Shown: positions 4,793 to 59,631 of the stretch, in pieces | Position numbering within the stretch: the stretch's first letter is position 1 | Layout of the letters: each line of letters opens with the position of its first letter | Program-made: the position numbers and the translations under genes | Notes under the pieces: generated by a model | What the model was told of the DNA's origin: nothing | Databases searched by the model: none | Seen by the model: the letters and a program-made list of their open reading frames with translations, nothing else | Source of the DNA: Thiohalocapsa sp. | Lineage (GTDB): Bacteria; Pseudomonadota; Gammaproteobacteria; Chromatiales; Chromatiaceae | Assembly (NCBI GenBank): GCA_021736785.1 | Contig: JAIPFF010000005.1 | Location: 62,001-126,000, forward strand | Reading direction: 5' to 3' | Length of the DNA: 64,000 nucleotides

Positions 4793-4808
4793 CGGGGGCA
4801 TTTGCCGG
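4793..4808 (+). promoter_or_regulatory. putative enhancer motif (UAS)
   Basis: CGGGGGCATTTGCCGG, a copy of the recurrent CGGKGCATTTGCCCC motif. It faces a second, inverted copy at 4814-4830, so ATTTGC and GCAAAT form a palindrome separated by 12 nt. Confidence 0.5.
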
Positions 4809-4813
4809 CCGGC

Positions 4814-4830
4814 GGGTGCAAATCCACCGG
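4814..4830 (-). promoter_or_regulatory. putative enhancer motif (UAS), inverted copy
   Basis: Reads CCGGTGGATTTGCACCC on the minus strand. It is the partner of the copy at 4793 and resembles the copy at 43531. Confidence 0.45.
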
Positions 4831-4958
4831 GCCGGGGCTTTATACGTCATTCACGCTCGCCGCGATGGGTAATCGTCCGGATTCGCAGCGTCCCCCAGGG
4901 TCGCTACATTGCCGGCTCGGCAACGCGGGAAACGTCCCGCGGCCGCTACGATACAACG

Positions 4959-4973
4959 CGGCAACGCCGATGC
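4959..4973 (+). promoter_or_regulatory. weak candidate sigma-54 promoter (YbaK-like gene)
   Basis: CGGCAACGCCGATGC has correct GG-N10-GC spacing and GGCA at -24, but only ATGC at -12. It is about 50 nt before the start. Confidence 0.35.
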
Positions 4974-5023
4974 GAACAACGGGCGCCACGCAAGCGCCGC
5001 GACCCGACACGGGGAGGAAGCCG

Positions 5024-5500
5024 GTGGCAACATCGATGGGGCTCGACGATCTTCTGCACGCGCAGGACGTTCACTGCGCGCTGCTGCCGACGTATCTGCG
5101 CGCACCGCACGGCCAAGGTGCTCGCGGCAGGATCCCGATCACGGGCGCCCACCGGATCGCCACCGGACTGCTGTTGGCCGACCGCCTCGGCTCCGCCCTG
5201 GCCGTCATTCCAAAGGATCGGGCGCTCGACCTCGGCGCCATGCAGCAAGAATTCGGCCGGCAGTTCCACGTATTGGGGCGAATCGACGCCTCCCGCGTCG
5301 GATCCGGGCTGGCCGCCGCCGCCGGCTCGACGCCGACGCCGGCCGGCATCGAGCTGTTCGTCGACCAATCTCTGGTCCTGCTCTCCTATGTCTACCTGGA
5401 GACCGCCGATCCGAATCGGTTGGCGCGCCTCGACGGCGACTCGTTCCGCAGCCTGTTCTATGGCGCCTGGTGCGGACGCATCACCCGCAAGCCGGATTGA
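5024..5500 (+). CDS. YbaK/EbsC-family (aminoacyl-tRNA deacylase-like) protein
   Basis: A 158-residue protein resembling the YbaK/ProXp editing fold, which hydrolyses mischarged aminoacyl-tRNAs. Family-like strings are GLLLADRLGSALAVIPKDR, LDLGAMQQEFGR and, near the C-terminus, VDQSLVLLSYVYLETAD. The Lys usually found near the start of the core (family pattern KxLLL) is not evident, so activity is uncertain. I prefer GTG at 5024, 6 nt after GGAGG; ATG at 5036 is the alternative. The open frame continues upstream but runs through the regulatory region. Confidence 0.65.
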   Translation: MATSMGLDDLLHAQDVHCALLPTYLRAPHGQGARGRIPITGAHRIATGLLLADRLGSALAVIPKDRALDLGAMQQEFGRQFHVLGRIDASRVGSGLAAAAGSTPTPAGIELFVDQSLVLLSYVYLETADPNRLARLDGDSFRSLFYGAWCGRITRKPD

Positions 5501-5673: not shown

Positions 5674-7098
5674 ATGAGCGAACGCTACGACGCGATCATC
5701 ATCGGAGCCGGCCAGGCCGGACCACCGCTGGCACTGCGGCTGGCCGGCCAAGGCCTGACGACGGCGCTGATCGAGCGCCGCCAGGTCGGCGGCAGCTGCG
5801 TGAACTTCGGTTGCACGCCCACCAAGGCGATGGTCGCCAGCGCCCGCGCGGCTTGGGCGGCACGGCGTGCCGGTGAGCTGGGCGTGCGCATCGGCGGCAG
5901 CATCGACGTCGACCTGGCAGCGGTGAAGGCGCGCACCGACGCCATCGTCGCGAGCTCCCGCGACGGGCTGCGCGAGGCGCTGTCGTCGCAAGACCATATC
6001 GCGCTCATCGAGGCCCATGCGCGTTTCACCGGCACCCGTACCGTGAGCGCCGGCGGGCGCGAGCTGAGCGCTCCGCGCATCTTCATCAACACCGGCACCC
6101 GCAGCGCCGTGCCGCCGATTCCCGGGCTGGAAGCATCCGGCTATTGGACGCCGAGCAGCGTGAGCCGGGCGGAAACGCTGCCGGAGCATCTCATCGTCCT
6201 CGGCGGCGGCGCGACCGGCGTCGAGTATGCGCAGATGTTCGGGCGCTTCGGCAGCCGGGTGACGCTGATCGAGCGTCATGCGCGCCTGCTCCCGGGCGAG
6301 GACTCCGACGTCTCCGCCGCCGTTCAGCGCATCCTGGAGTCGGAAGGCATCGACGTCCAGGTGGGCGCCGAGGCGAAGCAGGTGCAAGGGTCGGCCGGCG
6401 ACATCGCCCTGCGGTTCTCCGCCGGCGGCAGCGAGCAGACCGTACAGGGCGATCGACTCCTGCTCGCACTCGGGCGCCGCCCCAATAGCGACGACCTCGA
6501 CCTGGAAGCTGCCGGCGTTGCGGTGGACGCCGACGGACATATCCCGGTCGACGAGATACTGCGCACCGGCGTGGACGGCATCTGGGCCCTCGGCGACGTC
6601 AACGGCAAAGGGGCGTTTACGCATACGGCCTACGACGACTATCGCATCGTCGCCGACCAACTGTTCGGTGAAGGCCGGCGCTCGCTCGACGACCGCATCC
6701 ACGCGGCCGCTGTCTACATCGATCCGCCGCTGGGGCGCGTAGGACTCGACGAGACGCAGATCCGCGCCGCCTCCCGCGGCACCTTGCTGGCGAAAATGCC
6801 GATGAGCGCAGTCTCCCGCGCCACGGAGCGCGGCGAGACCGAAGGCTTCATGAAGGTGCTGGTGGACGAGCAAAGCAGCCGCATCCTCGGCGCAACCGTG
6901 CTCGGCATCGGCGGCGACGAGGTCGTCCAGGCCCTGCTCATCGCCATGGCCGCCGGCGCCCCCTATCAGCTGATCCGCGACCTCACCGGCATCCACCCGA
7001 CCGTGAGCGAACTGCTGCCGAGCCTGTTCGCGAGCCTCGAGCGTATGGAATCGCCCGTCGACGCGCAGGCCGGCGAAGCCGCGCGGCAGCAGGGCTAG
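5674..7098 (+). CDS. FAD-dependent pyridine nucleotide-disulfide oxidoreductase (mercuric-reductase-like)
   Basis: A 474-residue class I flavoprotein disulfide reductase. It has the N-terminal FAD loop IIIGAGQAGPPLA, the redox pair GGSCVNFGCTPTKAM, the NAD(P) loop VLGGGATGVEYAQMFGRFG, the second FAD motif GIWALGDVNGKGAFTH and a C-terminal dimer domain ending in HPTVSELLP with the catalytic His-Glu dyad. It lacks both the N-terminal heavy-metal domain and the C-terminal Cys pair of true MerA, so mercury reduction is doubtful; the substrate is unknown. ATG 5674 is favoured over ATG 5668 because GGAGG ends 8 nt before it. It probably forms a single-gene unit under the promoter at 5592. Confidence 0.88.
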   Translation: MSERYDAIIIGAGQAGPPLALRLAGQGLTTALIERRQVGGSCVNFGCTPTKAMVASARAAWAARRAGELGVRIGGSIDVDLAAVKARTDAIVASSRDGLREALSSQDHIALIEAHARFTGTRTVSAGGRELSAPRIFINTGTRSAVPPIPGLEASGYWTPSSVSRAETLPEHLIVLGGGATGVEYAQMFGRFGSRVTLIERHARLLPGEDSDVSAAVQRILESEGIDVQVGAEAKQVQGSAGDIALRFSAGGSEQTVQGDRLLLALGRRPNSDDLDLEAAGVAVDADGHIPVDEILRTGVDGIWALGDVNGKGAFTHTAYDDYRIVADQLFGEGRRSLDDRIHAAAVYIDPPLGRVGLDETQIRAASRGTLLAKMPMSAVSRATERGETEGFMKVLVDEQSSRILGATVLGIGGDEVVQALLIAMAAGAPYQLIRDLTGIHPTVSELLPSLFASLERMESPVDAQAGEAARQQG

Positions 7099-10746: not shown

Positions 10747-11100
10747 TCAGCGCTGGACGTCCGGATTACCCTCGCCGAAGCCCCCGTGCACGTCGGCCTC
10801 CTCGGCGTAGGGCCGCTCGGTCTCGGGTGCGCCCGGGCGCAGCGACGGGTTGCCCTCGGCCACTTCGTCCGGGTAGCGCTCGGCCTCCGCTGTACCCGCC
10901 TCGCCGGCAGCCTCGGTTTCCGGCGGCAGCCCGTTGCCGCGATCGCCGACGACATCGGGGTTATCTTCGGCAAAGCCTGAGTACTTCTCCACCGGGTCAT
11001 GCCCGGCGTCCGCGTCGGCCGCCTCGGTCTGTGCTTGCAGCGGCAAGGCCGCGGCCAAGGCGATCATCGACGTGAACAGAATCAGATTTCGGTGTTTCAT
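10747..11100 (-). CDS. small secreted protein with repeated E[DG]NP motif
   Basis: A 117-residue acidic protein. The signal peptide MKHRNLILFTSMIALAAALP ends near LQAQ. The mature part carries three related segments: GFAEDNPDVVG, EVAEGNPSLRPG and GFGEGNPDVQR. I recognise no family. The start has GGAG 7 nt upstream. A sigma-54-like promoter at 11356-11370 lies 240 nt upstream, and treS follows 114 nt downstream, so the two may be co-transcribed. Confidence 0.7.
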   Translation of the reverse strand: MKHRNLILFTSMIALAAALPLQAQTEAADADAGHDPVEKYSGFAEDNPDVVGDRGNGLPPETEAAGEAGTAEAERYPDEVAEGNPSLRPGAPETERPYAEEADVHGGFGEGNPDVQR

Positions 11101-11355
11101 GGCGAGCTCCGTTATCTCTGCGTGGTGTAACTCAATGGTGTGCCGGCATGGTGTGCCGGCGTGGGCATTGCCGATGTTCCGAGCTCGGGCAGCACCGGCT
11201 CGCGTGCCCCGCACCCGCATGCCTCCGCCATCGCTGCTTGATGCCCGACGCGACGGCCGGGAACCGCTTGCCGCCGCTGAGCCCGGAACGCTCGCCCCGG
11301 ACATCGGCGGCAAATCGGCTCCGCTGGGGCGGCGCCGCGATACACGGAAAATTAC

Positions 11356-11370
11356 GCAAGGGCCGGGCCA
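11356..11370 (-). promoter_or_regulatory. candidate sigma-54 promoter (secreted protein/treS)
   Basis: TGGCCCGGCCCTTGC on the minus strand: TGGC, exact 10-nt GG to GC spacing, TTGC. Confidence 0.5.
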
Positions 11371-11540: not shown

Positions 11541-11556
11541 CGGGGTGCATTCCCCC
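11541..11556 (+). promoter_or_regulatory. putative enhancer motif (UAS)
   Basis: CGGGGTGCATTCCCCC, a degenerate copy of CGGKGCATTTGCCCC. It is 74 nt upstream of the treZ promoter candidate. Confidence 0.4.
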
Positions 11557-11629
11557 AAGGCCGGCTGATATCCCCCGCTGCCCGGCCGAGATCGCCGCCG
11601 CCGCCGGCTACCCGGGCCGACCTCTACGC

Positions 11630-11644
11630 TGGTACGCCTTCTGC
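11630..11644 (+). promoter_or_regulatory. candidate sigma-54 promoter (treZ operon)
   Basis: TGGTACGCCTTCTGC followed by A: only two positions differ from TGGCACG-N4-TTGCA. It is about 52 nt before the treZ ATG. Confidence 0.65.
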
Positions 11645-11695
11645 ACGCGTCTTCATAGTCTCGACGACTTTGTTTCGCGAAAGCAGGTAGAGCCT

Positions 11696-13588
11696 ATGAG
11701 TCAAGCACGCCACCGCATGCCATTCGGCGCCGAGATCACCGATGAAGGCTCGGTCCGATTCCGGCTGTGGGCGCCTGCCGCCGAGGCGGTCACGCTCGAT
11801 GTGGGGGACGGCGGCGGCCCGCGTCAGGAGCTGCAGATGTCGCCCGCCGGCGACGGCTGGTTCGAGCACGTCACCGATATGGCCGGCCCCGGAAGCCGCT
11901 ATCGGTTTCTCGTCACCGGGCCGCGCACGGACGGCGCCAAGGCCATACCCGATCCGGCCTCGCGCTACCAACCCGGAGACGTGCACGGCTTCAGCGAAGT
12001 GATCGACCCGACGCGCTTCGACTGGAAGGACGACGAGCCCGAAGGCCCGTGGCGCGGCCGTCCGCGGGAGGAGGCGATCTTCTACGAGCTGCACGTCGGC
12101 AGCTTTTCCCCTGAAGGCACCTTCGCCGGCGCTGCCCGGCGACTGGACCACCTCGCGGCGCTGGGCATCACCGCCATCGAGCTGATGCCGGTGGCCGCGT
12201 TTCCGGGCCGGCGCAACTGGGGCTACGACGGCGTGCTGCCCTTCGCACCGGACGCAAGCTACGGCCGGCCGGACGACCTGAAGGCACTGGTGCAGCAAGC
12301 CCACCGGCACGGACTGATGGTCTTCCTCGACGTCGTCTACAACCACTTCGGCCCCGAGGGAAACTATCTGCACCTGTACGCACCGCAGTTCTTTACCGAC
12401 CGGCATCAAACACCCTGGGGAGCCGGTATCAACTTCGATGGCGAGCGCAGCGGCCCGGTGCGCGATTTCTTCATCCAGAACGCCCTCTACTGGCTAGAAG
12501 AGTACCGGCTCGACGGCCTGCGCCTGGACGCCGTGCACGCCATTGCCGACGACTCCGATCCGGACATCTTGACCGCCCTCGCGGACGCGGTGAACCAGGG
12601 TCCGGGCCGCGAGCGCGCGGTCCATTTGGTGCTGGAGAACGACCACAATGCGGCCCATTACCTGCAACGGCGCGACGACGGCACGCCGCGCCTGTACACG
12701 TCGCAATGGAACGACGACTTTCATCACGCGGCGCATCTGCTGCTCACCGGAGAGCGCGACGGTTACTACGCCGACTATGCCGATCAGCCCGCCCGGCGTC
12801 TCGGCCGCTGCCTCGCCGAGGGCTTCGCCTATCAGGGCGAGCCATCGGCTTATCGCGACGGCGCCGCCCGCGGCGAGCCGAGCGCATCGCTGCCGCCGAC
12901 GGCGTTTATCAACCTGATTCAAAATCACGATCAGGTCGGCAACCGCGCCTTCGGCGAGCGCATCGGCGCGCTGGCTTCGGAAGAGGCGCTGCGGGCAATG
13001 ACGGCCCTGTTGCTGCTGGCGCCCTCCCCGCCGCTGCTGTTCATGGGACAGGAATTCGGTGCCGACACGCCGTTCCTGTTCTTTTGCGATTTCGGCGACG
13101 ACCTGGCCGAGTCCGTGACCGAAGGGCGGCGGCGCGAATTCGCCCGCTTCGAGCGTTTCGCCGACGACAACGCCAGGCAGGCGATCCCCGATCCCAACGA
13201 CCGGCAAACCTTCGAGCGCTCGCGCCTGGACTGGAGCACCCTCCCCGAAGTGCGCCACCGCCAGTGGCTGCAGTTCCACCGGTTGCTGCTGCAACTGCGC
13301 CACGCTCGGATCGTGCCGCGCCTGGCGGGCATGGACGGCGGCGGCGCTGCCTTCGACGTCATCGGCGAAGGCGGACTGCAGGTGCGCTGGCGCCTCGGCG
13401 ACGGCAGCCGCTTGACGCTGTTCGCGAACCTGGCGGCAGCGGCAATCGACGCCGCCGGCCTGCAGCATCAGCACGCCGCCGACCGGCTTTACCTGGAGCC
13501 CCTGAGCGCGGAGCCGGCGCTGCGCAACGGCCGCCTGCCGCCATGGACCGTTGCCTGGTACCTGCAAGACGCTCCGGGTCAAGTCTGA
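11696..13588 (+). CDS. treZ: malto-oligosyltrehalose trehalohydrolase
   Basis: A 630-residue GH13 enzyme that releases trehalose from maltooligosyl-trehalose, the second step of the TreY-TreZ route from glycogen or maltodextrin. The N-terminal E-set module (VRFRLWAPAAEAVTLDV) is followed by the TIM barrel: EAIFYELHVGSFSPEGTF, GYDGVLPFAPDASYG, DVVYNHFGPEGNYL, nucleophile Asp278 in LRLDAVHAI, Glu314 in VLENDHN, Asp412 in IQNHDQVGNRA and FMGQEFG. ATG 11696 is chosen because the region before it is regulatory. It is first in an operon with the malQ-treY fusion 91 nt downstream. Confidence 0.95.
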   Translation: MSQARHRMPFGAEITDEGSVRFRLWAPAAEAVTLDVGDGGGPRQELQMSPAGDGWFEHVTDMAGPGSRYRFLVTGPRTDGAKAIPDPASRYQPGDVHGFSEVIDPTRFDWKDDEPEGPWRGRPREEAIFYELHVGSFSPEGTFAGAARRLDHLAALGITAIELMPVAAFPGRRNWGYDGVLPFAPDASYGRPDDLKALVQQAHRHGLMVFLDVVYNHFGPEGNYLHLYAPQFFTDRHQTPWGAGINFDGERSGPVRDFFIQNALYWLEEYRLDGLRLDAVHAIADDSDPDILTALADAVNQGPGRERAVHLVLENDHNAAHYLQRRDDGTPRLYTSQWNDDFHHAAHLLLTGERDGYYADYADQPARRLGRCLAEGFAYQGEPSAYRDGAARGEPSASLPPTAFINLIQNHDQVGNRAFGERIGALASEEALRAMTALLLLAPSPPLLFMGQEFGADTPFLFFCDFGDDLAESVTEGRRREFARFERFADDNARQAIPDPNDRQTFERSRLDWSTLPEVRHRQWLQFHRLLLQLRHARIVPRLAGMDGGGAAFDVIGEGGLQVRWRLGDGSRLTLFANLAAAAIDAAGLQHQHAADRLYLEPLSAEPALRNGRLPPWTVAWYLQDAPGQV

Positions 13589-26516: not shown

Positions 26517-26756
26517 TCAAGGCTTGGTCGGGGTGCTGTAGTCACGCTCCACCTCCGGGTCTTCCTCTTTCGCGCGGGCGCGGCCCTTCTCTTCGCTGCG
26601 GGCGGCCTCCTCGGGATCCTGGTCGCCGGCCTTGCGGGCGGCCTCGTCCACTTTGCCGGAGCGCACGTGCGCGCGAGTGTCGGCGTTGTATTCACGCGCC
26701 GCCTCCCGGTTGCCTTCGCCCTGATTGTCTTGCTTTTCGGACTTTCGATCGGTCAT
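26517..26756 (-). CDS. small hydrophilic protein, unknown function
   Basis: A 79-residue charged protein (MTDRKSEKQDNQGEGNREAA at the N-terminus) with no hydrophobic segment. The GEGNREAAREYN and GKVDEAARKAGD strings recall small stress-associated proteins common in proteobacteria, but I cannot name a domain. GAGGGG lies 7 nt before the ATG. It is first in a minus-strand series with the EF-hand, DUF1328 and ftsH genes. Confidence 0.75.
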   Translation of the reverse strand: MTDRKSEKQDNQGEGNREAAREYNADTRAHVRSGKVDEAARKAGDQDPEEAARSEEKGRARAKEEDPEVERDYSTPTKP

Positions 26757-26822
26757 TGCATTGCCCCTCGTTGGCCATCGGAACCGACAGGCTCCGATGG
26801 ATCAGGTGTCGTTCGACAAAAC

Positions 26823-26837
26823 GCAGATTCCATGCCA
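26823..26837 (-). promoter_or_regulatory. candidate sigma-54 promoter (26756-to-ftsH series)
   Basis: TGGCATGGAATCTGC: TGGCATG at -24, exact spacing, CTGC at -12. It is about 70 nt before the ATG at 26756. Confidence 0.6.
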
Positions 26838-26923: not shown

Positions 26924-26937
26924 CGGGGCATTTGCAC
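26924..26937 (+). promoter_or_regulatory. putative enhancer motif (UAS)
   Basis: CGGGGCATTTGCAC, a copy of CGGKGCATTTGCCCC about 87 nt upstream of the minus-strand promoter at 26823. Confidence 0.5.
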
Positions 26938-27037
26938 TGACGGATGGGGCTGTTGCCCCGGCGCAATCCCCTACGCGGGCGAAATTCGGCGCCGGGGGAT
27001 GCGCTTGGAGGGTCGCTCGGGGTCGGGCATTCGTCGG

Positions 27038-30597: not shown

Positions 30598-30769
30598 TGA
30601 ACTGGCCTGCTTCTGTCGGATGACTCGGTTTCACCGCGGCCGCGGAACACTGCGATGCGTTGCGCGACCCGGCACGACGGCGCGTCTTCAGCCGGTGGCG
30701 TTGCCGGCGGCGCCCCGCGGCTCCCCCCGGACTTTCCGGAAGACTTACCGAAACACTTTTCCGATCGGC

Positions 30770-30784
30770 GCAACTCGCATGCCA
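30770..30784 (-). promoter_or_regulatory. candidate sigma-54 promoter (membrane protein at 30597)
   Basis: TGGCATGCGAGTTGC: near-consensus, with TGGCATG, exact spacing and TTGC. Confidence 0.65.
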
Positions 30785-30848: not shown

Positions 30849-30863
30849 CGGTGCATTTGCCCC
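30849..30863 (+). promoter_or_regulatory. putative enhancer motif (UAS)
   Basis: CGGTGCATTTGCCCC, the best copy of the recurrent motif. It is 65 nt from the minus-strand promoter and 124 nt from the plus-strand promoter. Confidence 0.55.
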
Positions 30864-30986
30864 GCTGCCGTGGCTTATGCCCCGTTCGCCGGGACCGCCA
30901 TGGCCTGGAGCGCAACGCCCGGCGACGGCGTCCGGGCGGGCGCGGCGCTCGCATGCGCTCGACCCGCTTGCGCCGACACCGTCCGA

Positions 30987-31001
30987 TGGTATGCCCCTTG
31001 C
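30987..31001 (+). promoter_or_regulatory. candidate sigma-54 promoter (encapsulin operon)
   Basis: TGGTATGCCCCTTGC followed by T: exact GG-N10-GC and TTGCT. It is about 95 nt before the ferritin ATG. Confidence 0.6.
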
Positions 31002-31095
31002 TGTCCCTCTCGGTGCAAACGACACGGAGCCGCCGGCGCAAGTCGCCGCAACCATGGCGGCTCCGACACTCACCGACGCAACCAGGAGCGATCAC

Positions 31096-32372: not shown

Positions 32373-32384
32373 GGAACCCCGGCG

Positions 32385-43244: not shown

Positions 43245-43474
43245 GCAGCCTCCTCGATGTTCGGGCCCGCCAGAGCGCGGGGCGAGTTGTCGGCGCACGC
43301 GCGCGGATGCGGCGTCTGCGATTTCGGCCTGCCGGCGCCCGATTTCGTTTTTAGCCCACGTGCGCGGATGCGGCGGCTTGTCCGCTCTGGATTCCGTGCG
43401 GGACGGCCCCCTGCCTCGCGCGCCGAAGCGGCGCCCGGCGCGGTATCGCCGGCCATTCGGATGTCATGGCCAAT

Positions 43475-43489
43475 GCAAGCGCAATGCCG
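43475..43489 (-). promoter_or_regulatory. candidate sigma-54 promoter (pncB)
   Basis: CGGCATTGCGCTTGC followed by A: GGCA, exact spacing and TTGCA. The predicted leader is long, about 220 nt. Confidence 0.5.
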
Positions 43490-43530: not shown

Positions 43531-43545
43531 GGGGCAAATCCACCG
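43531..43545 (-). promoter_or_regulatory. putative enhancer motif (UAS)
   Basis: Reads CGGTGGATTTGCCCC on the minus strand; one mismatch to the motif copy at 30849. Confidence 0.5.
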
Positions 43546-43709
43546 CCGCTGCGGTGCATCCGAGCCATCGGACAGCTGTGTCGGCGCCCCGGCCGCACCG
43601 ATCCGCGTGCGCCGAGCAGCCACCGCGGGCCCGATCCCCGCTGCACCGAACCGGCAATCTTGCGGCCTGCCGGCGAAGGCGCCCGGGGCCCGGTGGGTGC
43701 GCCGACGCG

Positions 43710-43724
43710 TGGCCCCCGGCTTGC
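43710..43724 (+). promoter_or_regulatory. candidate sigma-54 promoter (nicotinamidase-like gene)
   Basis: TGGCCCCCGGCTTGC followed by A: TGGC, exact spacing and TTGCA. It is about 42 nt before the ATG at 43766. Confidence 0.6.
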
Positions 43725-43765
43725 AAACCTCGAGCGATACCCGAGCACAACCGCAAGAGGCAGCA

Positions 43766-44467
43766 ATGACCCACATCGACCCGCTCAGAGCAGCGCTGCT
43801 GATCGTCGATATGCAGCCCGATTTCATGCCGGGAGGCCCCCTGCCGGTGGAGTCGTCCACCGGCAACGGAGACAGCGACACCGCGGCCATCGTCGCCCCC
43901 GTGCGGGCGCTGATGGCATCCGGTCCGTTCCGCCTGCAGGTCGCCACACAGGATTGGCATCCGCCGGCGCACATGTCCTTCGCCGGCAGTCATCCGGGAC
44001 ACGAGGTCTTCGACAGCATCGAGGTGCACGGTCATGAGCAAACCCTCTGGCCGGAGCACTGCCTGCAAGGCACCGACGGTGCCGCGATTCATTCCGGACT
44101 GCCGCTGGAGCGCCTATCCGCCATCGTGCGCAAGGGCATGGACGAGGACGCGGACTCCTACAGCGGCTTTCGCAACAATTGGGGCCCCGGCGGCGAGCGC
44201 GCCCCCACCGGGCTGGCCGGCTATCTGCGCGAGCGCGGCGTCGACAGCGTCTTCTGCTGCGGCCTCGCGCGCGATGTCTGCGTGAAATGGACGGCGCAGG
44301 ACGCGGTCGGCGCGGGATTCAAGAGCTATTTCATCTGGGACCTGACTTGGCCCGTCGAATCCGATAACGACAGCCAAGTGCGCGACGCGCTGCAATCGCA
44401 CGGCGTGGAAATCGTCACCGCCGACATGCTCTCCGGCACCGCCCCGGGACTGGAGCGTACCGGCTGA
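43766..44467 (+). CDS. pncA: isochorismatase-family hydrolase, probable nicotinamidase
   Basis: A 233-residue cysteine hydrolase. Asp15 in LLIVDMQPDF, Lys123 in VRKGMDED and Cys172 in GLARDVCV form the catalytic triad; DWHP near residue 63 supplies metal ligands typical of nicotinamidases. The divergent position next to pncB supports conversion of nicotinamide to nicotinate. An Ala/Gly-rich upstream frame is not part of the gene. The start has AGAGG 6 nt before it. Confidence 0.88.
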   Translation: MTHIDPLRAALLIVDMQPDFMPGGPLPVESSTGNGDSDTAAIVAPVRALMASGPFRLQVATQDWHPPAHMSFAGSHPGHEVFDSIEVHGHEQTLWPEHCLQGTDGAAIHSGLPLERLSAIVRKGMDEDADSYSGFRNNWGPGGERAPTGLAGYLRERGVDSVFCCGLARDVCVKWTAQDAVGAGFKSYFIWDLTWPVESDNDSQVRDALQSHGVEIVTADMLSGTAPGLERTG

Positions 44468-48079: not shown

Positions 48080-48198
48080 ACGACGTGCTCCCTCTGCGCT
48101 GAGCGGACCACTTCCGGAAGGCGCCGATAGCGCCGCGAAGGCTCCGCGTGAATCTGCCGGGCGGGCCGATTGTTCGGGACCGCTCTTCGCGGATCTCA

Positions 48199-48213
48199 GC
48201 AAAGTCGGTGCCA
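48199..48213 (-). promoter_or_regulatory. candidate sigma-54 promoter (six-BON operon)
   Basis: TGGCACCGACTTTGC followed by T: near-consensus TGGCAC, exact spacing, TTGCT. It is about 120 nt before the ATG. Confidence 0.65.
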
Positions 48214-48329
48214 CCGGCAGCGGCGGCGCAGAGGCCGGGGCTGGCGCCGCCGGGCAACCCCACGCCCGGTCGGGCAGGCGCCCGCGCACCGCGCCGCTCA
48301 CGCCGCGGCGGGTGATTCGCACCGCGCTC

Positions 48330-48344
48330 GGGGTAAATGCACCG
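48330..48344 (-). promoter_or_regulatory. putative enhancer motif (UAS)
   Basis: Reads CGGTGCATTTACCCC on the minus strand; one mismatch to the copy at 30849. It is 117 nt upstream of the promoter at 48199. Confidence 0.5.
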
Positions 48345-48524: not shown

Positions 48525-48539
48525 CGGCATCGGCCTTGC
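48525..48539 (+). promoter_or_regulatory. candidate sigma-54 promoter (sodC)
   Basis: CGGCATCGGCCTTGC followed by T: GGCA, exact spacing, TTGCT. The leader to the sodC ATG would be about 200 nt. Confidence 0.45.
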
Positions 48540-48753
48540 TATGACGCTAGCGCACTCAAGCCATCCGACCGCCGAGTACCGGGGCACAGGCGTCCCAGCG
48601 CGGCGGGGCGCAAGGCTTGCGATGCTCGACCCGGCGACGGCGGGGAACGTCTTGCCAGAAGCCGCTCATCCCGGACCCGCGTCGGTTGCCGCCGGCGGTC
48701 CCGCCGTCGCCGGGCTCGTCGCCAACACCTCCAAATCAACAGGGATACAAGCC

Positions 48754-49293
48754 ATGTCAGTCACGCACGTGATCAATCGTCCGCTCTACGGCGCCATGCT
48801 GGCGGCCGCTCTGACCGGCGGCATCGTCCTTTCCGGCACGGCCGCGGCAGACGTCGCCGTGGCCGAGGCCTCCATCAAGAACCTAGACGGCGAGACCATC
48901 GGCACCGCCGTACTGCGCGAGACGGACGCCGGCGTGCTGCTGCACGTCAAGCTGGCCGGACTGCCGCCCGGTGTGCACGGCTTCCATATCCACGAGAAAG
49001 GCAAATGCGAGCCGCCGTTCGCGACCGCCGGCGGCCACTTGACGGTGGACGACAGCGAGCACGGCTACTTCAAAGCGCAGGGCCCCCACGCCGGAGACAT
49101 GCCCAACATCCACGTCCCCGAAAGCGGCGAGTTGGAGTTGGAAGTGCTGACCGGCGTCGAGGAACTGGAGCCGCAGCTGTTCGACGCGGACGGCGCCTCG
49201 CTGGTGATCCACCGCGGCGCCGACGACTACCGCAGTCAGCCATCGGGCGACGCCGGCGAGCGGATCGCCTGCGGTGTCATCGAAGCCAAGTAG
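48754..49293 (+). CDS. sodC: superoxide dismutase [Cu-Zn]
   Basis: A 179-residue periplasmic enzyme that dismutates superoxide. The signal peptide (YGAMLAAALTGGIVLSGTAAA) precedes the Cu/Zn site: HGFHIHEKGKCEPPF, GGHLTVDD, GPHAGDMPNIHV, VIHRGADDY and GDAGERIACGVI, so all metal ligands and the disulfide cysteines are present. The GGHLT string replaces the usual GGHFNP. Start ATG 48754 was chosen because the signal peptide begins there. The BON gene 155 nt downstream may be on the same transcript. Confidence 0.95.
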   Translation: MSVTHVINRPLYGAMLAAALTGGIVLSGTAAADVAVAEASIKNLDGETIGTAVLRETDAGVLLHVKLAGLPPGVHGFHIHEKGKCEPPFATAGGHLTVDDSEHGYFKAQGPHAGDMPNIHVPESGELELEVLTGVEELEPQLFDADGASLVIHRGADDYRSQPSGDAGERIACGVIEAK

Positions 49294-51516: not shown

Positions 51517-52089
51517 TCAGTCCCCCGAGCCTTTGCCGCGCTCCGGGAAGAACGGCGTCATGCGCCGAAGTACGTTGTCCTTCAGCAGCCATTCGTGGCG
51601 CAGCGCACCGCCGACGTGAAGCAGGATCAGCGCCACCACCAGCACCGCGCCGAGCGCGTGCAGCGTCCAGATAATGCCTTGCAGCGACTCGCTTTCCGGC
51701 AGCAGACTCGGCAGTTTCAAGCCAAAAAACGGAATCGGCTGTCCGAACGCGCTGACCAGCAAATAGCCGCCGATGGGCAGACCGATCAGCAGCAGGTAGA
51801 ACAGCCAATGCGTACCGCGCGCGACGCCTTGCTGCCAGCGCGGCAGCGTCTCCGGCAGCCGCGGCACCGGATTGGACCGCCGCCAGAACAAGCGCAGCAG
51901 CATCAGCAGCAAAATGGACAGACCGAGGGAGGTGTGAATCGGAAACAGCCCGCCCCAGGGGGCCGAGTCCGACGGCAGCGCGGCCAGCGTAAAGCCGACC
52001 GCAAGCTGGACCAGCACGGCCAGCGCGACAAGCCAATGCAGCGCTTGCTGCACGACACCCCATCGATCATCGGAGTTATGGGTTTGCAT
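51517..52089 (-). CDS. cytochrome b561
   Basis: A 190-residue membrane diheme cytochrome that passes electrons between quinol and periplasmic carriers. About four helices carry His residues in ALHWLVALAVLVQL, FPIHTSLGLSILLL, GTHWLFYLLLIG, TLHALGAVLVVAL and LLHVGGALRHEWL, matching the bacterial (CybB) type. GAGG lies 5 nt before ATG 52089. It is directly upstream of the P460-BON gene on the same strand, so the two may form one electron path. Confidence 0.92.
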   Translation of the reverse strand: MQTHNSDDRWGVVQQALHWLVALAVLVQLAVGFTLAALPSDSAPWGGLFPIHTSLGLSILLLMLLRLFWRRSNPVPRLPETLPRWQQGVARGTHWLFYLLLIGLPIGGYLLVSAFGQPIPFFGLKLPSLLPESESLQGIIWTLHALGAVLVVALILLHVGGALRHEWLLKDNVLRRMTPFFPERGKGSGD

Positions 52090-52253: not shown

Positions 52254-52267
52254 CGGGGCATTTGCCC
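52254..52267 (+). promoter_or_regulatory. putative enhancer motif (UAS)
   Basis: CGGGGCATTTGCCC, a full match to the motif core. It is 98 nt from the minus-strand and 114 nt from the plus-strand promoter candidate. Confidence 0.5.
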
Positions 52268-52380
52268 TGAGCGCGGTTGCTAACCACCAAGCCCCGGCCC
52301 GCCGGCCGCGGCCGAGCCGCGCGGGGCGCGTTTCGGCGAAACCGCGGCGGCGCGGCAGGGCGCAGGCGGCGCGGGCGGCA

Positions 52381-52395
52381 GGGCACTCTTCTTGC
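52381..52395 (+). promoter_or_regulatory. candidate sigma-54 promoter (HAD-otsB)
   Basis: GGGCACTCTTCTTGC followed by T: GGCAC, exact spacing, TTGCT. It is about 140 nt before the ATG at 52536. Confidence 0.6.
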
Positions 52396-52535
52396 TCGAT
52401 AAACAGCGTGCTCGGAGCCGCCCGCGTGCGGACCTTGCGACAGGAAGCCGCCGGTCGTTCTCGCCACGGTGCCGTTTCTCGGGTGCCGTCGCCGCCGGCC
52501 CCGGCGGCCTCGTTTCATCCGGACAGGATCCCGCC

Positions 52536-54095
52536 ATGCCCGACGAGCCCACACTGACCCTCTCCCGCGCGCGGATCGATGCCGTCCTGTTCGATCTGGA
52601 CGGCGTTGTCACGCGCACCGCCACGGTCCATGCGAGCGCCTGGAAGCGGATGTTCGACGGCTACCTGCGCGAGCGCCAGGCCGAAGAGGGCGAGGACCAC
52701 AGTCCTTTCGATGCCGATCGCGACTACCGGCGCTACGTGGACGGCAAGCCGAGGATCAAGGGCGTCAACCACTTCCTGATCGCCCGCGGCATCGATCTAC
52801 CCGAGGGCGATCCCGAAGACCCGCCGGACAAGGAGACCCTGTGGGGCCTCGGCAACCGCAAGAACCAGCTGTTCCGCGAAGCACTGAAAGAGCGCGGCGT
52901 CGAGCTGTACGGCTGCTCGGTCGCACTGCTGCACCGACTGCGCGACGCGGGCTACCGTACCGCCGTGGTCACCGCCAGCAAAAACTGCGACCTGATCCTC
53001 GCCGAGGCGGGTATCGCCGACCTGTTCGATGCCCGTGTCGACGGCGTCGAGGCCGAGCGCCTGGAGCTCGCCGGCAAGCCCGACGCGGACACGTTTATCG
53101 AAGCCGCCGAGCGCCTGCACTGCGCGCCGGAGCGCTGCGCCGTGCTCGAAGACGCGGTCGCCGGCGTGCGCGCGGCGCGGCGCGGCCGCTTCGGTCTGGT
53201 CATCGGCGTCGACCGCGATGGCCAGAGCCGCCACCTCGAAGAGCAAGGCGCGGACGTGGTCCTCGATGACCTCTGCCGGATCCGCGTCGAGGGCACCGAG
53301 AGCACCGTGCCCCCGCTGCTGACCGACAAGACGCGGGTCTCCGCGCGGCTCGCCGACAAGAGCCCCGCCCTGTTCCTGGACTACGACGGCACGCTCACCC
53401 CTATCGTCGAGCGCCCGGAGGACGCCGTGCTTTCGCAGGCCATGCGCGAGACCCTGCGCGAGGCCGCCCGCGCGATGACGGTTGCCGTCGTCAGCGGGCG
53501 GGATCTGGAGGACGTGCGCTCGCTCGTCGGTCTGGATGAAATGATTTACGCGGGCAGCCACGGCTTCGAGATCCGCGGCCCCGACTTGGACCTCGAGCTG
53601 CACGAGGGCATCGATGCCCTCGATGACCTGCGCCAAGCCGCGGAGACGCTGTCGGAGCGCTTGGCATCCGTCGACGGCGCGCAAATCGAGCGCAAGCGCT
53701 TCGCCGTGGCGGTGCATTTCCGGCGCGTCGCCGAGGCGGACACGGAGGCCGTCGAGCGGGCGGTCGCGGCGACCGCCGAGGCACACCCTCGGCTGCGGCG
53801 CACCGGCGGCAAGAAGATCTTCGAGCTGCGCCCCGACATCGACTGGGACAAGGGCCGCGCCGTGGCCTGGCTGCTGTCGAAGCTCGGCCTCGACGGCCAA
53901 GACGTCCTGCCGATCTATATCGGCGACGACGAAACCGACGAGGATGCGTTCCAAGCGCTGCGCGGGCGCGGCGGCCTCGGCATTCTGGTAGCCGAAGAGC
54001 CGACCGCAAGCGCCGCCGGCTACCGGCTGCGCGACAGCGAGGACGTTCGCGCCCTGCTCGCGCACTTGGTCGAGTCCGAGCGCGAAGGACGCTGA
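52536..54095 (+). CDS. otsB: HAD phosphatase/phosphoglucomutase domain fused to trehalose-6-phosphate phosphatase
   Basis: A 519-residue two-domain protein. Residues 1 to about 255 are a beta-phosphoglucomutase-like HAD domain: AVLFDLDGVVTRTATVHA, VVTASKN and AVLEDAVAGVRAARRG. Residues about 265-519 are an OtsB phosphatase: LFLDYDGTLTPIVERPEDA, VAVVSGRDLEDVRSLVG, KIFELRPDIDWDKGRAVAWL and IYIGDDETDEDAF. This order is known from mycobacterial OtsB1, in which a GH65 domain follows in the same chain; here GH65 is a separate gene at 57159. No otsA is seen in the window, so the source of trehalose-6-phosphate is unknown. Confidence 0.92.
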   Translation: MPDEPTLTLSRARIDAVLFDLDGVVTRTATVHASAWKRMFDGYLRERQAEEGEDHSPFDADRDYRRYVDGKPRIKGVNHFLIARGIDLPEGDPEDPPDKETLWGLGNRKNQLFREALKERGVELYGCSVALLHRLRDAGYRTAVVTASKNCDLILAEAGIADLFDARVDGVEAERLELAGKPDADTFIEAAERLHCAPERCAVLEDAVAGVRAARRGRFGLVIGVDRDGQSRHLEEQGADVVLDDLCRIRVEGTESTVPPLLTDKTRVSARLADKSPALFLDYDGTLTPIVERPEDAVLSQAMRETLREAARAMTVAVVSGRDLEDVRSLVGLDEMIYAGSHGFEIRGPDLDLELHEGIDALDDLRQAAETLSERLASVDGAQIERKRFAVAVHFRRVAEADTEAVERAVAATAEAHPRLRRTGGKKIFELRPDIDWDKGRAVAWLLSKLGLDGQDVLPIYIGDDETDEDAFQALRGRGGLGILVAEEPTASAAGYRLRDSEDVRALLAHLVESEREGR

Positions 54096-54229: not shown

Positions 54230-55027
54230 TCAATCGCGGGCGCGGCCGCGGGGTCGTCCGTAGTAGTCGAACAGCACGGTTTCCTGCTCGATATTCACTG
54301 GCTCGCTCGGGTCGAACTCAGGCGCTTCTTCCACCAGGTCGGGGCCGACGCCGATCAATAAGCGGTTATCGACCCAGTCGATGCTCTCGACCCATTCCAC
54401 CGGCAGGAGCACCTTGCGCGAGAACGGCAGCCGCGAGGTATCGAGCGCCAGCATCTTGATCTGCCAAGAGACATCGTCGGCAATCATGTCGACGACGCGG
54501 CCGACGTCGGTGCCGTCTTCGACGCAGCGCACATGGTAGCCGCTGACCTCGTTCAGGGAGCGCAAGTGCACGTGCTCGGTCTCTTCGAGCGCCTGCGGCG
54601 CGACCGCGGGTGTCTTCGGCTCGCTCGGCCGGGGCTCGATGCGCACCTGTTGCTCGGCGGTCATGCTCGACGGCAGCGGATAGTCCCCCCAAACACCGCT
54701 GCCGAGCCAATAATGGGGCAGCGCGTAGAAGACATTGAAGGCGTGCTCGTAGCGGCGCGAGATCGGCGCGTCGCTGTCGAGCGGCGGACTTTGCTCGATC
54801 TGCTCGCGCGTCAACAGGACCGGTATGCGGCGCGTCTCCCAGTCGGGACGGCCGATCTGGGCGGGCGAAATCAGCACCTTGCGCCCGTGCAGCCAGCGCG
54901 AGGTGTCGGCGACCAGATAGCGCACCGCCCAATCGCGATCGTCGAACAGAAAGTCCGCGCATTTGCCGATGTCGTCGTCGATGGCCTCGAGGACATAACC
55001 TTCAGGGACGGCGAGGCTTCTCAACAT
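54230..55027 (-). CDS. PRC-barrel-domain protein
   Basis: A 265-residue protein with two PRC-barrel-like modules: residues 1-85 (GYVLEAIDDDIGKCADFLFD, VRYLVADTSRWLHGRKVLIS) and residues 165-235 (VSGYHVRCVEDGTDVGRVVD, LALDTSRLPFSRKVLLPVEW). A linker contains YEHAFNVFYALPHYWLG. PRC barrels bind RNA or protein partners in varied systems; function here is unknown. AAGGAG lies 7 nt before ATG 55027. It follows the BON gene at 55160 on the same strand and is probably co-transcribed with it. Confidence 0.85.
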   Translation of the reverse strand: MLRSLAVPEGYVLEAIDDDIGKCADFLFDDRDWAVRYLVADTSRWLHGRKVLISPAQIGRPDWETRRIPVLLTREQIEQSPPLDSDAPISRRYEHAFNVFYALPHYWLGSGVWGDYPLPSSMTAEQQVRIEPRPSEPKTPAVAPQALEETEHVHLRSLNEVSGYHVRCVEDGTDVGRVVDMIADDVSWQIKMLALDTSRLPFSRKVLLPVEWVESIDWVDNRLLIGVGPDLVEEAPEFDPSEPVNIEQETVLFDYYGRPRGRARD

Positions 55028-55159
55028 GATCTTGCTCCTTCGATTGTCGCTATTCGAATCGCGGCGCCGGCGCGCGGCGGATCGGTGCAAATCAGCCGCG
55101 GCCGGCTCGAATCACCCGCCGGGGCGAGCCCCGGCCGGGGCCGGCGGATCGCACCGCGA

Positions 55160-56510: not shown

Positions 56511-56975
56511 ATGCCCATGAAGCTCACCTCGCCGGCGTTCGCCACCGGCGGCGATATCCCGGACCGCTACAGCAAGTCGCGGGAAAACGACCAGCCCGAG
56601 CTCATCATCACCGGCGTGCCCGAAGGCACCCGCGAGCTCGCGGTCATCTGCCACGACCCGGACGCCCCGATGCCGCATGGATTTACCCATTGGACGCTGT
56701 ACGGCATCCCCGCGGACACGAAACAGATCGCCAAGAACGGCGAGCGCGCGTACCGGCCGGGCCCCAATGATTTCGGAGAAAGCGGCTACGGCGGCCCGCA
56801 ACCGCCCGAAGGACATGGGCCGCATCACTACTTTTTCTGGCTCTATGCGCTGAACACCGCCGTGGAAGGCACGCCGACGCGCGACGCCTTCCTGCGCGAC
56901 TATGCCGATCATGTCGTCGCGCAAAGCCGCATTGTCGGAATCTACGAAAACCCGGGTGCCGCGGATGTCGCCTAG
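56511..56975 (+). CDS. YbhB/YbcL-family PEBP-like protein
   Basis: A 154-residue cytoplasmic protein of the phosphatidylethanolamine-binding (Raf-kinase-inhibitor-like) fold. Hallmarks are LAVICHDPDAPMPHGFTHWT, GPNDFGESGYGGPQPPEGHG and HHYFFWLYAL. The biological role of bacterial members is unclear. AGGAG lies 7 nt before ATG 56511. It is 183 nt upstream of the GH65 gene. Confidence 0.92.
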   Translation: MPMKLTSPAFATGGDIPDRYSKSRENDQPELIITGVPEGTRELAVICHDPDAPMPHGFTHWTLYGIPADTKQIAKNGERAYRPGPNDFGESGYGGPQPPEGHGPHHYFFWLYALNTAVEGTPTRDAFLRDYADHVVAQSRIVGIYENPGAADVA

Positions 56976-56980
56976 GCGCA

Positions 56981-56995
56981 CGGCGCCTTTGCCCC
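56981..56995 (+). promoter_or_regulatory. putative enhancer motif (UAS), two mismatches
   Basis: CGGCGCCTTTGCCCC, 13 of 15 positions of the motif, upstream of the GH65 gene. I found no convincing promoter partner. Confidence 0.35.
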
Positions 56996-57158
56996 GGGCC
57001 TCGGCCAAGGCCCGCCGCGGCGCCTTGCGCCGCCCCTGCTTCGAATCGGCACTCGAATCGGCACCCGAGCCGACCCCGAACCGGCCCCGGCGCCGGCGCC
57101 GGCCGGCCATGACCCGGCGGCCGCCGCACGGGCCCCGACGACCGACCGGAGACCCGGA

Positions 57159-59615
57159 ATGACCGAGTGGAATTGGACCTACGACGACTATCGCCCCGAG
57201 CAGGAAAAGCTCCGGGAAGCGCTTTGCACACTCGGCAATGGCTATTTCGCCACCCGCGGCGCGGCGCCGGAATCGCGCGCCGGCGACGTGCACTATCCGG
57301 GCAGCTACCTCTCCGGCGGCTATAACCGCCGGAACAGCGAAGTCCAGGGTCGCGTGGTCGAGAACGAAGATCTGGTCAACCTACCCAACTGGCTCGTGCT
57401 GCGGCTGCGTATCGACGGCGGCGATTGGCTGGATCTCGACACGCTCGAGGTGGTCGCTTATCGCCAGAGCCTGGACATGCGCGACGGCATACTGATCCGC
57501 GACGTGACGGTGCTCGACGACGACGGGCGGAAGACACGCGTGGTTCAGCGCCGGCTGGTGCACATGGCGCGCAGCCATCTGGCGGCGCTGCAGACCGAGG
57601 TCGCGGCCTGCAACTGGTCCGGCACGATCGAAGTGGAAAGCGCCCTCGACGGGCGTGTCGTCAACGACGGCGTCGAGCGCTACCGCGGCCTCGAGGGCAA
57701 GCACCTCGCGCCGATCGATGCCGGCGCCGTCGACGAGGACGGCATCTACTTGAAGATGCGCACCAGCCAATCTCGGCTCGAGATCGCGCTGGCCGCTCGG
57801 ACCCGGATCTACCGCAACGGCAGCCATATCGACTTGGAACCGTCGCTGACGCAAGATCCGGACTACGTGGGTCAGACCTTCGCCGCGCACATCGAGCAGG
57901 AGCGCCCGCTCTTGGTCGAGAAGACGGTCGCGCTCTTTACCGGGCGGGATCATGCCATCAGCGAATGCGGCCTCGAGGCCCGGCAAGCGATTCGCGACGC
58001 GCCGCGCTTCGGCGAGCTGCTGACCGAGCATGCGCTGCTCTGGCGCCAGCTCTGGCGGCGCTTCGATCTGCAGCTGAGGCTGCGCGACGACGACGGCGGG
58101 CGCACCGCGTCGATCCTGCGCCTGCATCTCTTCCATCTGCTGGTCACCGCCGCGCCGACCGTCATGGACCTCGACGTCGGCGTGCCCGCCCGCGGCCTGC
58201 ACGGGGAGGCCTACCGCGGCCACATTTTCTGGGACGAGCTGTTCATCTTCCCGATCCTGGATCTGCGCCTGCCGGAGATCACCCGCTCCCTGTTGATGTA
58301 CCGCTACCGCCGGCTGCAGGCCGCCCGCGAGGCCGCGCGCGAGGCCGGTTACCGCGGTGCGATGTATCCCTGGCAGAGCGGCAGCAACGGACGCGAGGAG
58401 AGCCAGAAGCTGCATCTGAACCCCCGCTCCGGGCATTGGACGCCGGACGAGACGCACCTTCAGCGCCACGTCAACGGCGCCATTGCCTACAACATCTGGC
58501 AGTACTTCCAAACCAGCGGGGATGTCGAATTCCTGTCCTTCTACGGCGCCGAGATGTTGCTCGAGATCGCCCGCTTCTGGGCCAGTATCGCAACCCACAA
58601 CCAGGCGCTGGAGCGCTACGAGATCCGCGGCGTGGTCGGGCCGGACGAGTTCCATACCGGCTACCCGGACCGCGCCGAGCCCGGCCTCGACAACCACGCC
58701 TACACCAGCGTGATGGCCGCGTGGGTGCTGTGCCGGGCCCTGGACCTGCGTGCCCACTTGCCGACCGAGCGCTGGGAAGAGCTCAGAGAGTTGCTCGCCA
58801 TCAGCGACGACGAGCTGACCCACTGGCAGACCGTCAGCCGCAAGCTGCGGGTGTGCTTCCACGGCGACGGCATCATCAGCCAGTTCGAGGGCTTCGACGA
58901 CTTGAAGGAATTGGACTGGCAGGCATACCGCGAGCGCTACGACGATATCCAGCGACTCGATCGTATCCTCGAGTCCGAGGGCGATTCGCCGAATCACTAC
59001 AAGGTGACCAAGCAAGCGGATGTACTGATGCTGTTTTACCTGTTCTCCACCGAGGAGCTCCAGCGCCTGTTCGATCGCCTCGGCTACCGCTTCGAGCCGG
59101 ATATGATCCCGCGCAACGTGGAGTACTACGGCGCGCGCACCAGCCACGGCTCGACGCTGAGCCGGGTCGTCGACGCCTGGGTGTTGGCCCGCTCGGATCG
59201 CCCGCGCTCCTGGTCGCTGTTCACCGAAGCGCTCGAAAGCGACGTTGCCGACATCCAGGGCGGCACCACCTCCGAAGGCATCCACCTCGGCGCCATGGCC
59301 GGCACCGTCGACCTCATCGAGCGCTGTTACACCGGCATCGAGATCCGCGACGGCCACCTGTGGCTGAACCCCGACCTGCCGGACGAGCTCGCCGGGCTGA
59401 CCATGCGCCTGCGTTTCCGGGGGCAGACGCTGGAGCTCGAGATCAGCCACGACCTGATGAGACTGCGTGCCGTCTCGCCCGAGACCGACTGTATCCATCT
59501 GCACTGCGACGGACAGGACATCCGCATCGCCGCCGGCGAGACCTACGACATGAAACCGGAGCAAAAGCCGGTGCGCGTCGAGGCACCCCGAGCGCTCGGT
59601 GCATTTGGGCCATAA
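57159..59615 (+). CDS. GH65 disaccharide phosphorylase/hydrolase
   Basis: An 818-residue GH65 protein. Enzymes of this family phosphorolyse trehalose, maltose or kojibiose to beta-glucose-1-phosphate and glucose. The order is an N-terminal beta-sandwich (LREALCTLGNGYFATRGAAP), an (alpha/alpha)6 barrel with YRGHIFWDELFIFPIL and YPWQSGSNGREESQ, catalytic Glu497 in GVVGPDEFHTGYP, the anion site in YYGARTSHGSTLSRVVDAW, and a C-terminal domain. The HAD domain at 52536 could convert the beta-glucose-1-phosphate. Substrate is not certain. GGAG lies 7 nt before the start. Confidence 0.92.
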   Translation: MTEWNWTYDDYRPEQEKLREALCTLGNGYFATRGAAPESRAGDVHYPGSYLSGGYNRRNSEVQGRVVENEDLVNLPNWLVLRLRIDGGDWLDLDTLEVVAYRQSLDMRDGILIRDVTVLDDDGRKTRVVQRRLVHMARSHLAALQTEVAACNWSGTIEVESALDGRVVNDGVERYRGLEGKHLAPIDAGAVDEDGIYLKMRTSQSRLEIALAARTRIYRNGSHIDLEPSLTQDPDYVGQTFAAHIEQERPLLVEKTVALFTGRDHAISECGLEARQAIRDAPRFGELLTEHALLWRQLWRRFDLQLRLRDDDGGRTASILRLHLFHLLVTAAPTVMDLDVGVPARGLHGEAYRGHIFWDELFIFPILDLRLPEITRSLLMYRYRRLQAAREAAREAGYRGAMYPWQSGSNGREESQKLHLNPRSGHWTPDETHLQRHVNGAIAYNIWQYFQTSGDVEFLSFYGAEMLLEIARFWASIATHNQALERYEIRGVVGPDEFHTGYPDRAEPGLDNHAYTSVMAAWVLCRALDLRAHLPTERWEELRELLAISDDELTHWQTVSRKLRVCFHGDGIISQFEGFDDLKELDWQAYRERYDDIQRLDRILESEGDSPNHYKVTKQADVLMLFYLFSTEELQRLFDRLGYRFEPDMIPRNVEYYGARTSHGSTLSRVVDAWVLARSDRPRSWSLFTEALESDVADIQGGTTSEGIHLGAMAGTVDLIERCYTGIEIRDGHLWLNPDLPDELAGLTMRLRFRGQTLELEISHDLMRLRAVSPETDCIHLHCDGQDIRIAAGETYDMKPEQKPVRVEAPRALGAFGP

Positions 59616-59631
59616 CCGGTTGCTTTGCCCC
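59597..59631 (+). promoter_or_regulatory. pair of enhancer-like motifs before the ATPase operon
   Basis: Two near copies of CGGKGCATTTGCCCC: 59597-59611 (13 of 15, overlapping the last GH65 codons) and 59617-59631 (12 of 15, ending TTTGCCCC). They lie 54-75 nt upstream of the promoter at 59686. Confidence 0.4.

Follow-up and report, generated by a model that had tools for sequence, protein, structure and literature searches.

Activators of sigma-54 RNA polymerase usually run narrow regulons, concerned with nitrogen, flagella or one substrate. The sigma-54 promoter consensus is printed as TGGCAC-N5-7-TTGCT (PMC12316311), the enhancers of most activators are placed 80 to 150 base pairs (bp) 5' of the promoter (PMC3844500), and the TspS/TspR system of Acidithiobacillus caldus is described as a sigma-54-dependent response regulator with the upstream activator sequence (UAS) TGTCCCAAATGGGACA (PMC6335251). 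Here we describe an element recurring in 64,000 nucleotides of Thiohalocapsa sp. (positions 62001-126000 of contig JAIPFF010000005.1, hereafter the window; the whole contig, C90, comprises 141,233 bases). A sequence-only reading of the window had proposed an intergenic 15-mer as enhancer for an NtrC-type activator. The enhancer idea is the best-supported one, but the reading missed the tandem palindromes and named neither activator nor regulon. We consider it very probable that the element is a UAS through which one NtrC-family response regulator of the same genome (G000:C62:26763-28187) drives the sigma-54 promoters of a stress and survival regulon. Tandem structure, promoter placement, conservation at orthologous genes, co-occurrence with the activator and a copy at the activator operon were all established computationally.

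The 15-mer is indeed recurrent: with up to 3 mismatches it had 20 matches in the window against 6.5 expected, a number reached in 0 of 100 shuffles, several of these matches being the two strands of one palindrome. The true unit, however, is a tandem pair of 14-bp palindromes with the consensus GGKGCAWWTGCMCC and centres 20-21 bp apart, and the 15-mer is merely one of its boxes. The sites at 4793/4814 and 59597/59617, which had been taken for separate copies, are therefore each one tandem element, and a pair at 55084 had been missed. The proposed copies at 4793/4, 4814/5, 26924, 30849, 43531, 48330, 52254, 56981, 59597 and 59617 were recovered, whereas the one at 11541, in the register first proposed, exceeds 3 mismatches and corresponds to a weaker box, GGTGCATTCCCCCA, at 11544. 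Position 56981 is a doubtful member, with neither a partner box nor a sigma-54-like site of at least 9 bits within 300 bp, and may be a chance occurrence.

On the contig, 13 pairs scored at least 18 at spacings of 19-22, compared to 0.125 on average and a maximum of 3 for palindromic matrices with permuted columns. When spacings from 14 to 44 were scanned singly, 9 pairs were found at 20, 3 at 21, 1 at 19, 1 at 22 and 2 in total at all others; own-genome spacing counts lean towards the chosen spacing since some second boxes had been picked for it. An intergenic location was found for 11 of the 13 pairs (genes were predicted with an ad hoc script, not a standard gene finder), against an intergenic share of 15.7% of the DNA. 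The remaining two are the pair at 59598, which overlaps the end of a GH65 gene, and a weak pair at 13267, which lies within a gene. Unseeded pairs were found outside the window at C90 133083 (5' of a gene reading as ppsA), 57491 and 23183, and 4 of 12 loci outside the contig that had been found via the palindromic core (L001, L002, L003, L010) carried an unseeded partner box 19-21 bp off. A profile of the pair built from sequence (R1), which like the box matrix was trained on own-genome sites, detected 29 distinct genome places at expectation values (E) up to 1, with 12 of them on C90, that is on 2.7% of the genome. A search with the exact palindrome GGGGCAWWTGCCCC and 1 mismatch (15 genome places against 3 in the reversed control) was dropped in favor of R1, because the second box is degenerate and most later sites were missed. 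R1 split the relatives into motif-rich and motif-poor genomes even within the genus, with 43, 37, 37, 22, 21, 8 and 7 hits versus 1, 1 and 1; a palindromic place may be counted once on each strand here, and 3 hits can therefore equal 2 places.

Promoters were scanned independently of the pairs with a matrix built from a sigma-54 consensus, and 12 of the 13 sites of at least 13 bits on C90 were intergenic. An outward sigma-54-like site was present at 30-300 bp from 10 of the 13 pairs, compared to 2.1 of 13 random intergenic points, and none of 1000 such draws came to 10. In relatives, the same held for 46 of 58 sites versus 4 of 57 and 2 of 60 control points 800 bp away; the sample consisted of 60 sites from 23 related genomes at the strong end of the listed R1 hits, minus 2 without flank. 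Within 50-150 bp of the pair centre, 52 outward sites of at least 11 bits faced 2 inward ones in the equal range. These distances agree with the enhancer range of 80-150 bp in PMC3844500. The properties expected of a UAS were found: more than one palindromic dimer site in helical register, as tandem palindromes at 20-21 bp, and a position some 50-200 bp 5' of a -24/-12 promoter in the fractions given above. Abundance inside genes or away from such promoters and lack of conservation had been named beforehand as signs against an enhancer; the motif proved to be rare inside genes, located at sigma-54-like promoters and conserved in relatives.

Palindromic boxes suit many dimeric regulators, and an apparent PAS histidine kinase and a response regulator of FixJ-like type are encoded together inside the island (window 34717-36518). 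It is nevertheless very unlikely that the pair binds a regulator other than a sigma-54 activator, be it this FixJ-like protein (35889-36518) or a dimeric repressor, that shares promoters with sigma-54. The site lies well 5' of outward sigma-54-like promoters and in many cases is flanked by two of them, a placement unusual for repressors and sigma-70 activators. Furthermore, each of the 10 genomes tested, whether motif-rich or motif-poor, had FixJ-like homologues of about 50% identity, and on this ground the protein was rejected as the cognate regulator.

Which sigma-54 activator would then read the pair? The genome contains one rpoN gene and 25 matches to PF00158, from which 21 activator genes were kept as candidates. 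A chimeric query made of the last 120 residues of these activators was compared with 5 motif-rich and 5 motif-poor genomes at E <=1e-15, with 34 first-look candidates scored, a number exceeded in four of the ten genomes (G001, G005, G009 and G006). The sole segment found in 5/5 motif-rich and 0/5 motif-poor genomes was that of the NtrC-type response regulator on C62. The sequence-only reading had suggested looking for an enhancer-binding protein that co-occurs with the motif, and the C62 regulator is a likely candidate for it. Its full sequence had matches at <=1e-90 in 49 of 194 family genomes, 27 of them at >=70% identity, 18 at 53-65% (including G072 despite a partial 77% match) and 4 near 40%. 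At least 3 R1 hits, under stricter filters with loss of weak matches, occurred in 25 of the 27 genomes with a close orthologue and in 6 of the 167 others, where the four genomes with 38-41% matches were counted as lacking the orthologue (Fisher p ~1e-23, uncorrected for kinship).

Co-occurrence alone cannot separate a regulator from a target, since the operon that includes the C62 gene would itself be under the control of the motif. The pair might be the enhancer for another sigma-54 activator, such as NtrC, NtrX, PilR, a NifA-like protein or another paralogue, with the C62 regulator being merely one of its targets. We find this unlikely in view of the other 20 segments, none of which shows the 5/5 and 0/5 distribution; those of NtrX, NtrC and NifA-like proteins also match motif-poor genomes. 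In addition, units of pair and promoter recur in distant genomes, near genes related to the C62 activator. PilR, the sole full activator match on the contig of the window, was rejected as the cognate activator, its segment also matching the motif-poor genomes G006, G007 and G019. A further NtrC-like protein of 297 residues was noted at L036 (G000:C19 ~5947-6378). It seems to have lost the sigma-54-contacting GAFTGA region, because its sigma-54 domain match is in two pieces and skips profile positions 62-93; related C-termini were found in G011, G012, G016 and G019.

The C62 activator operon of the window genome consists of a pair (L088 10487, score 29.3), the sigma-54-like site TGGTACGAGAATTGCG, a 92-residue gene, a CBS-domain gene and the activator gene. 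For a view independent of the motif, 80 activator loci were fetched by the receiver domain alone. They contained 105 anchor boxes with up to 2 mismatches compared to 22 in the reversed sequence, and partner boxes numbered 6, 12, 8 and 5 at spacings of 20 to 23, against 0-3 at every other spacing, a pair of two good boxes scoring twice. Of 46 pairs scoring at least 20, 38 had an outward sigma-54-like site, spread over 30 loci, while 60 permuted matrices gave 0.07 such units on average and 2 at most. This comparison is like for like; in an earlier count, the observed 47 were counted per promoter and the control per pair. Units located 5' of and facing kinase-activator genes were seen in Gallionellaceae (L132), in Sulfuriferula (L163) and in metagenome-assembled genomes (MAGs) of Methylococcales or other proteobacteria (L142, L158-L160, L166, L186, L187; L142 and L159 belong to Methylococcales), with 78-107 bp from pair centre to promoter. 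An apparent yfdX gene lies between unit and kinase-activator genes in L132 and L163. The pair-promoter unit is found near activator relatives in other Gamma- and Betaproteobacteria, and the recognition helix GTTRETLRYR is barely altered in most of these relatives.

The element is intergenic, palindromic and recurrent, as would also be a repetitive or structural DNA element of the kind of repetitive extragenic palindromes, without regulatory function. Such an origin is hardly conceivable: sequences diverged while spacing, palindrome and promoter distance were kept, at orthologous genes as well as in distant lineages, and motif hits track the presence of one regulator. For regulon-gene orthologues of at least 60% identity in motif-rich genomes, 11 of 16 loci had a pair with an outward sigma-54-like site within 1.5 kilobases (kb) upstream, and in 10 of these 11 the promoter faced the gene. 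None of 13 paralogue or motif-poor loci had such a unit, including a 75% identical ATP synthase gene in the activator-less G007. The underlying search gave 41 matches, 30 of which were examined as loci; excluded from both groups was L284, which matches at 43%, belongs to a motif-rich genome and carries a unit.

Several observations weigh against a UAS read by the C62 activator. On the contig, the pairs at 13267, 55084 and 133083 had no detectable outward sigma-54-like site (for 55084, none scoring >=10.5 within 300 bp), and 5 of the 16 orthologous loci lacked the unit. So did 50 of the 80 activator loci, among them most of those from Methylococcales, and a unit facing the activator within 4 kb upstream was present in 20 of the 80 only. 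In an earlier permutation run, 1 of 30 matrices gave 32 units, compared to at most 2 in the 60 others. Two genomes (G098, G143) have a close orthologue yet no motif hit at E <=0.3; three (G124, G195, G207) have 3-4 hits and no activator match at 1e-90. The other genomes with at least 3 hits and without close orthologue (G011, G072, G153) each carry a relative of 60-62%, in G072 together with the partial 77% match. Because only 3 of the 18 genomes with a 53-65% relative reach 3 hits, this branch of the activator may read another site.

The C62 protein comprises a receiver domain (PF00072), an AAA+ domain (PF00158, profile positions 1-167 of 168) and a Fis-type helix-turn-helix domain (PF02954), and GAFTGA is present as judged from its sequence. 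It reached no NCBIfam cut-off among the best 25 of 67 matched families; the top one was AtoC with 347 against a cut-off of 714. In the receiver, the phospho-acceptor Asp55 as well as Thr83 and Lys105 showed no variation among 12 orthologues, and phosphorylation by an unlinked kinase is therefore plausible. A histidine kinase of one family is encoded directly 5' of the activator gene in 55 of 71 loci. An adjacent kinase of that family was missing in the window genome and in 13 Chromatiaceae-titled loci with orthologues of 72-79%, a statement that leaves room for other kinase families. In the window genome, a HisKA-only protein of 216 residues is encoded beside a PAS hybrid kinase of 936 residues (L089 10027-13806, G000:C62 ~45-49 kb). 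Sigma-54-like sites lie near both genes, and similar genes occur near the activator in several related loci. These two proteins are candidate upstream kinases of the activator. In a Thiohalocapsa MAG (L195, 10001 onwards), we noticed a kinase-linked second paralogue of the activator (59%), whose recognition helix ends in REKLRYR instead of RETLRYR.

These data are best explained by the following mechanism. The element would be a UAS whose two palindromes are centred two helical turns from each other; with this spacing, a pair of dimers of one activator, most likely the C62 regulator, could bind side by side on the same DNA face. Once bound, the activator would loop to sigma-54 RNA polymerase at -24/-12 promoters that lie 50-150 bp from the pair, to one side or to both, and would open them by ATP hydrolysis, with phosphorylation acting as the switch. 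We infer binding, activation and the switch, as well as the role in stress and survival, from sequence data.

Positions of pairs and promoters in the window are collected in the table below. A Pfam scan of 30 proteins (one kinase and 29 encoded at pairs or in their vicinity) gave 23 above the cut-off, 6 with no match and 1 with a match below the cut-off only. In the window and at other places of the genome, genes adjacent to pairs encode dodecin, EncFtn with encapsulin, a six-BON protein, Cu/Zn superoxide dismutase (SodC), nicotinate phosphoribosyltransferase, an isochorismatase-family protein, a HAD/trehalose-phosphatase protein, cytochrome b561, a PRC-barrel protein, a formamidopyrimidine-glycosylase-like protein, fasciclin, a DsrC-like protein, DJ-1/PfpI, YSC84, glucose-6-phosphate dehydrogenase, a pyruvate-dehydrogenase-type E1 and GH15. 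A TreZ-like gene, a second ATP synthase and PpsA were recognized by sequence reading alone. Going by these gene names, the regulated set would concern stress and survival rather than nitrogen or motility. At window 31096-34454, the EncFtn and encapsulin genes are directly followed by an apparent gene for an NAD-dependent DNA ligase, apparently in one operon behind the pair. An 1815-codon frame at window 13680-19124 resembles a fusion of 4-alpha-glucanotransferase and maltooligosyltrehalose synthase, the start of the sequence having been read.

Table. Tandem pairs, a doubtful single box and sigma-54-like promoters in the window (window coordinates; gene strands in brackets)
Feature	Position	Strand	Basis, score and neighbouring genes
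Tandem pair	4795..4828		spacing 20, score 30.6; between divergent genes 3696-4583(-) and 5036-5500(+)
Sigma-54-like promoter TGGCACGCATTCCGCT	4697..4712	-	matrix scan
Weaker tandem pair	11543..11576		spacing 19 or 20, score 21.8; between 10747-11100(-) and TreZ-like gene 11717-13588(+)
Sigma-54-like promoter TGGCCCGGCCCTTGCG	11355..11370	-	matrix scan
Sigma-54-like promoter TGGTACGCCTTCTGCA	11630..11645	+	matrix scan
Tandem pair	26925..26959		spacing 21, score 28.0; 5' of small gene 26517-26756(-)
Sigma-54-like promoter TGGCATGGAATCTGCG	26822..26837	-	matrix scan
Tandem pair	30850..30883		spacing 20, score 32.3 (top in contig); between 30109-30597(-) and EncFtn/encapsulin genes from 31096(+)
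Sigma-54-like promoter TGGCATGCGAGTTGCG	30769..30784	-	matrix scan
Sigma-54-like promoter TGGTATGCCCCTTGCT	30987..31002	+	matrix scan
Tandem pair	43531..43566		spacing 22, score 23.4; between nicotinate phosphoribosyltransferase 41874-43244(-) and isochorismatase-family (nicotinamidase-like) gene 43766-44467(+)
Sigma-54-like promoter CGGCATTGCGCTTGCA	43474..43489	-	matrix scan
Sigma-54-like promoter TGGCCCCCGGCTTGCA	43710..43725	+	matrix scan
Tandem pair	48310..48343		spacing 20, score 28.3; between six-BON-domain gene 46484-47947(-) and Cu/Zn superoxide dismutase 48754-49293(+)
Sigma-54-like promoter TGGCACCGACTTTGCT	48198..48213	-	matrix scan
Sigma-54-like promoter CGGCATCGGCCTTGCT	48525..48540	+	matrix scan
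Tandem pair	52255..52288		spacing 20, score 25.1; between cytochrome b561 51517-52053(-) and HAD/trehalose-phosphatase protein 52536-54095(+)
Sigma-54-like promoter GGGCACTCTTCTTGCT	52381..52396	+	matrix scan
Tandem pair	55084..55117		score 20.5; 5' of PRC-barrel gene 54230-55027(-)
Single box, doubtful member	56982..56995	+	no partner box
Tandem pair	59598..59631		spacing 20, score 24.4; overlaps GH65 gene end; 5' of apparent second ATP synthase operon, start ~59884(+)
Sigma-54-like promoter TGGCGCTGTTCTTGCG	59686..59701	+	matrix scan

The element shares with the UAS of the NtrC family its dimeric palindromes 5' of -24/-12 promoters, but it differs from those in print by the tandem GGKGCAWWTGCMCC palindrome at 20-21 bp spacing, string variants of which were unmatched in open-access papers of PubMed Central (PMC). 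The half-site GGTGCA resembles that of NtrC; here the half-sites face the opposite way, around a 2-bp centre. Among the open-access PMC matches listed, as judged from title and start of the abstract and with most subscription journals lying outside, no work on this motif, activator or stress regulon was present. Like the C62 activator, TspR is a sigma-54-dependent response regulator, and its UAS is palindromic with an A/T centre, according to PMC6335251. The apparent difference is that TspR, by the same source, controls adjoining sox genes and has a kinase; the comparison concerns the system and not the TspR protein itself. No sox gene was recognized by reading beside the activator of the window genome or beside its Acidithiobacillus relative (L155, 58%). 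The latter, again by reading, adjoins a gpsA-like gene and apparent hopanoid genes.

The combination of a sigma-54 enhancer and an NtrC-family activator is a known kind of system; the content of the regulon is what surprises. One unstudied activator appears to control trehalose-phosphatase, encapsulin-ferritin, superoxide dismutase, BON proteins, dodecin, NAD salvage and an apparent second ATP synthase. The definition of the predicted site, promoters and regulator is sufficiently precise for them to be tested directly at the bench, and with the motif model the regulon can be traced in further genomes of this group. We see an even chance that sigma-54 and one dedicated activator serve, in purple sulfur bacteria and probably in further Gamma- and Betaproteobacteria, to run a general stress and dormancy program parallel to RpoS, the activator of Chromatiaceae having lost its neighbouring kinase and taken over perhaps at least two dozen operons, many of them in one island. 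The RpoS regulon includes genes for trehalose, superoxide dismutase and BON proteins. Judged from gene content alone, the present set is of the same kind. Simple replacement of RpoS was rejected, since the genome also holds an rpoS gene above the family cut-off. The set resembles the general stress regulon of RpoS in what it contains and differs from it in its control, which apparently proceeds via sigma-54 and an activator.

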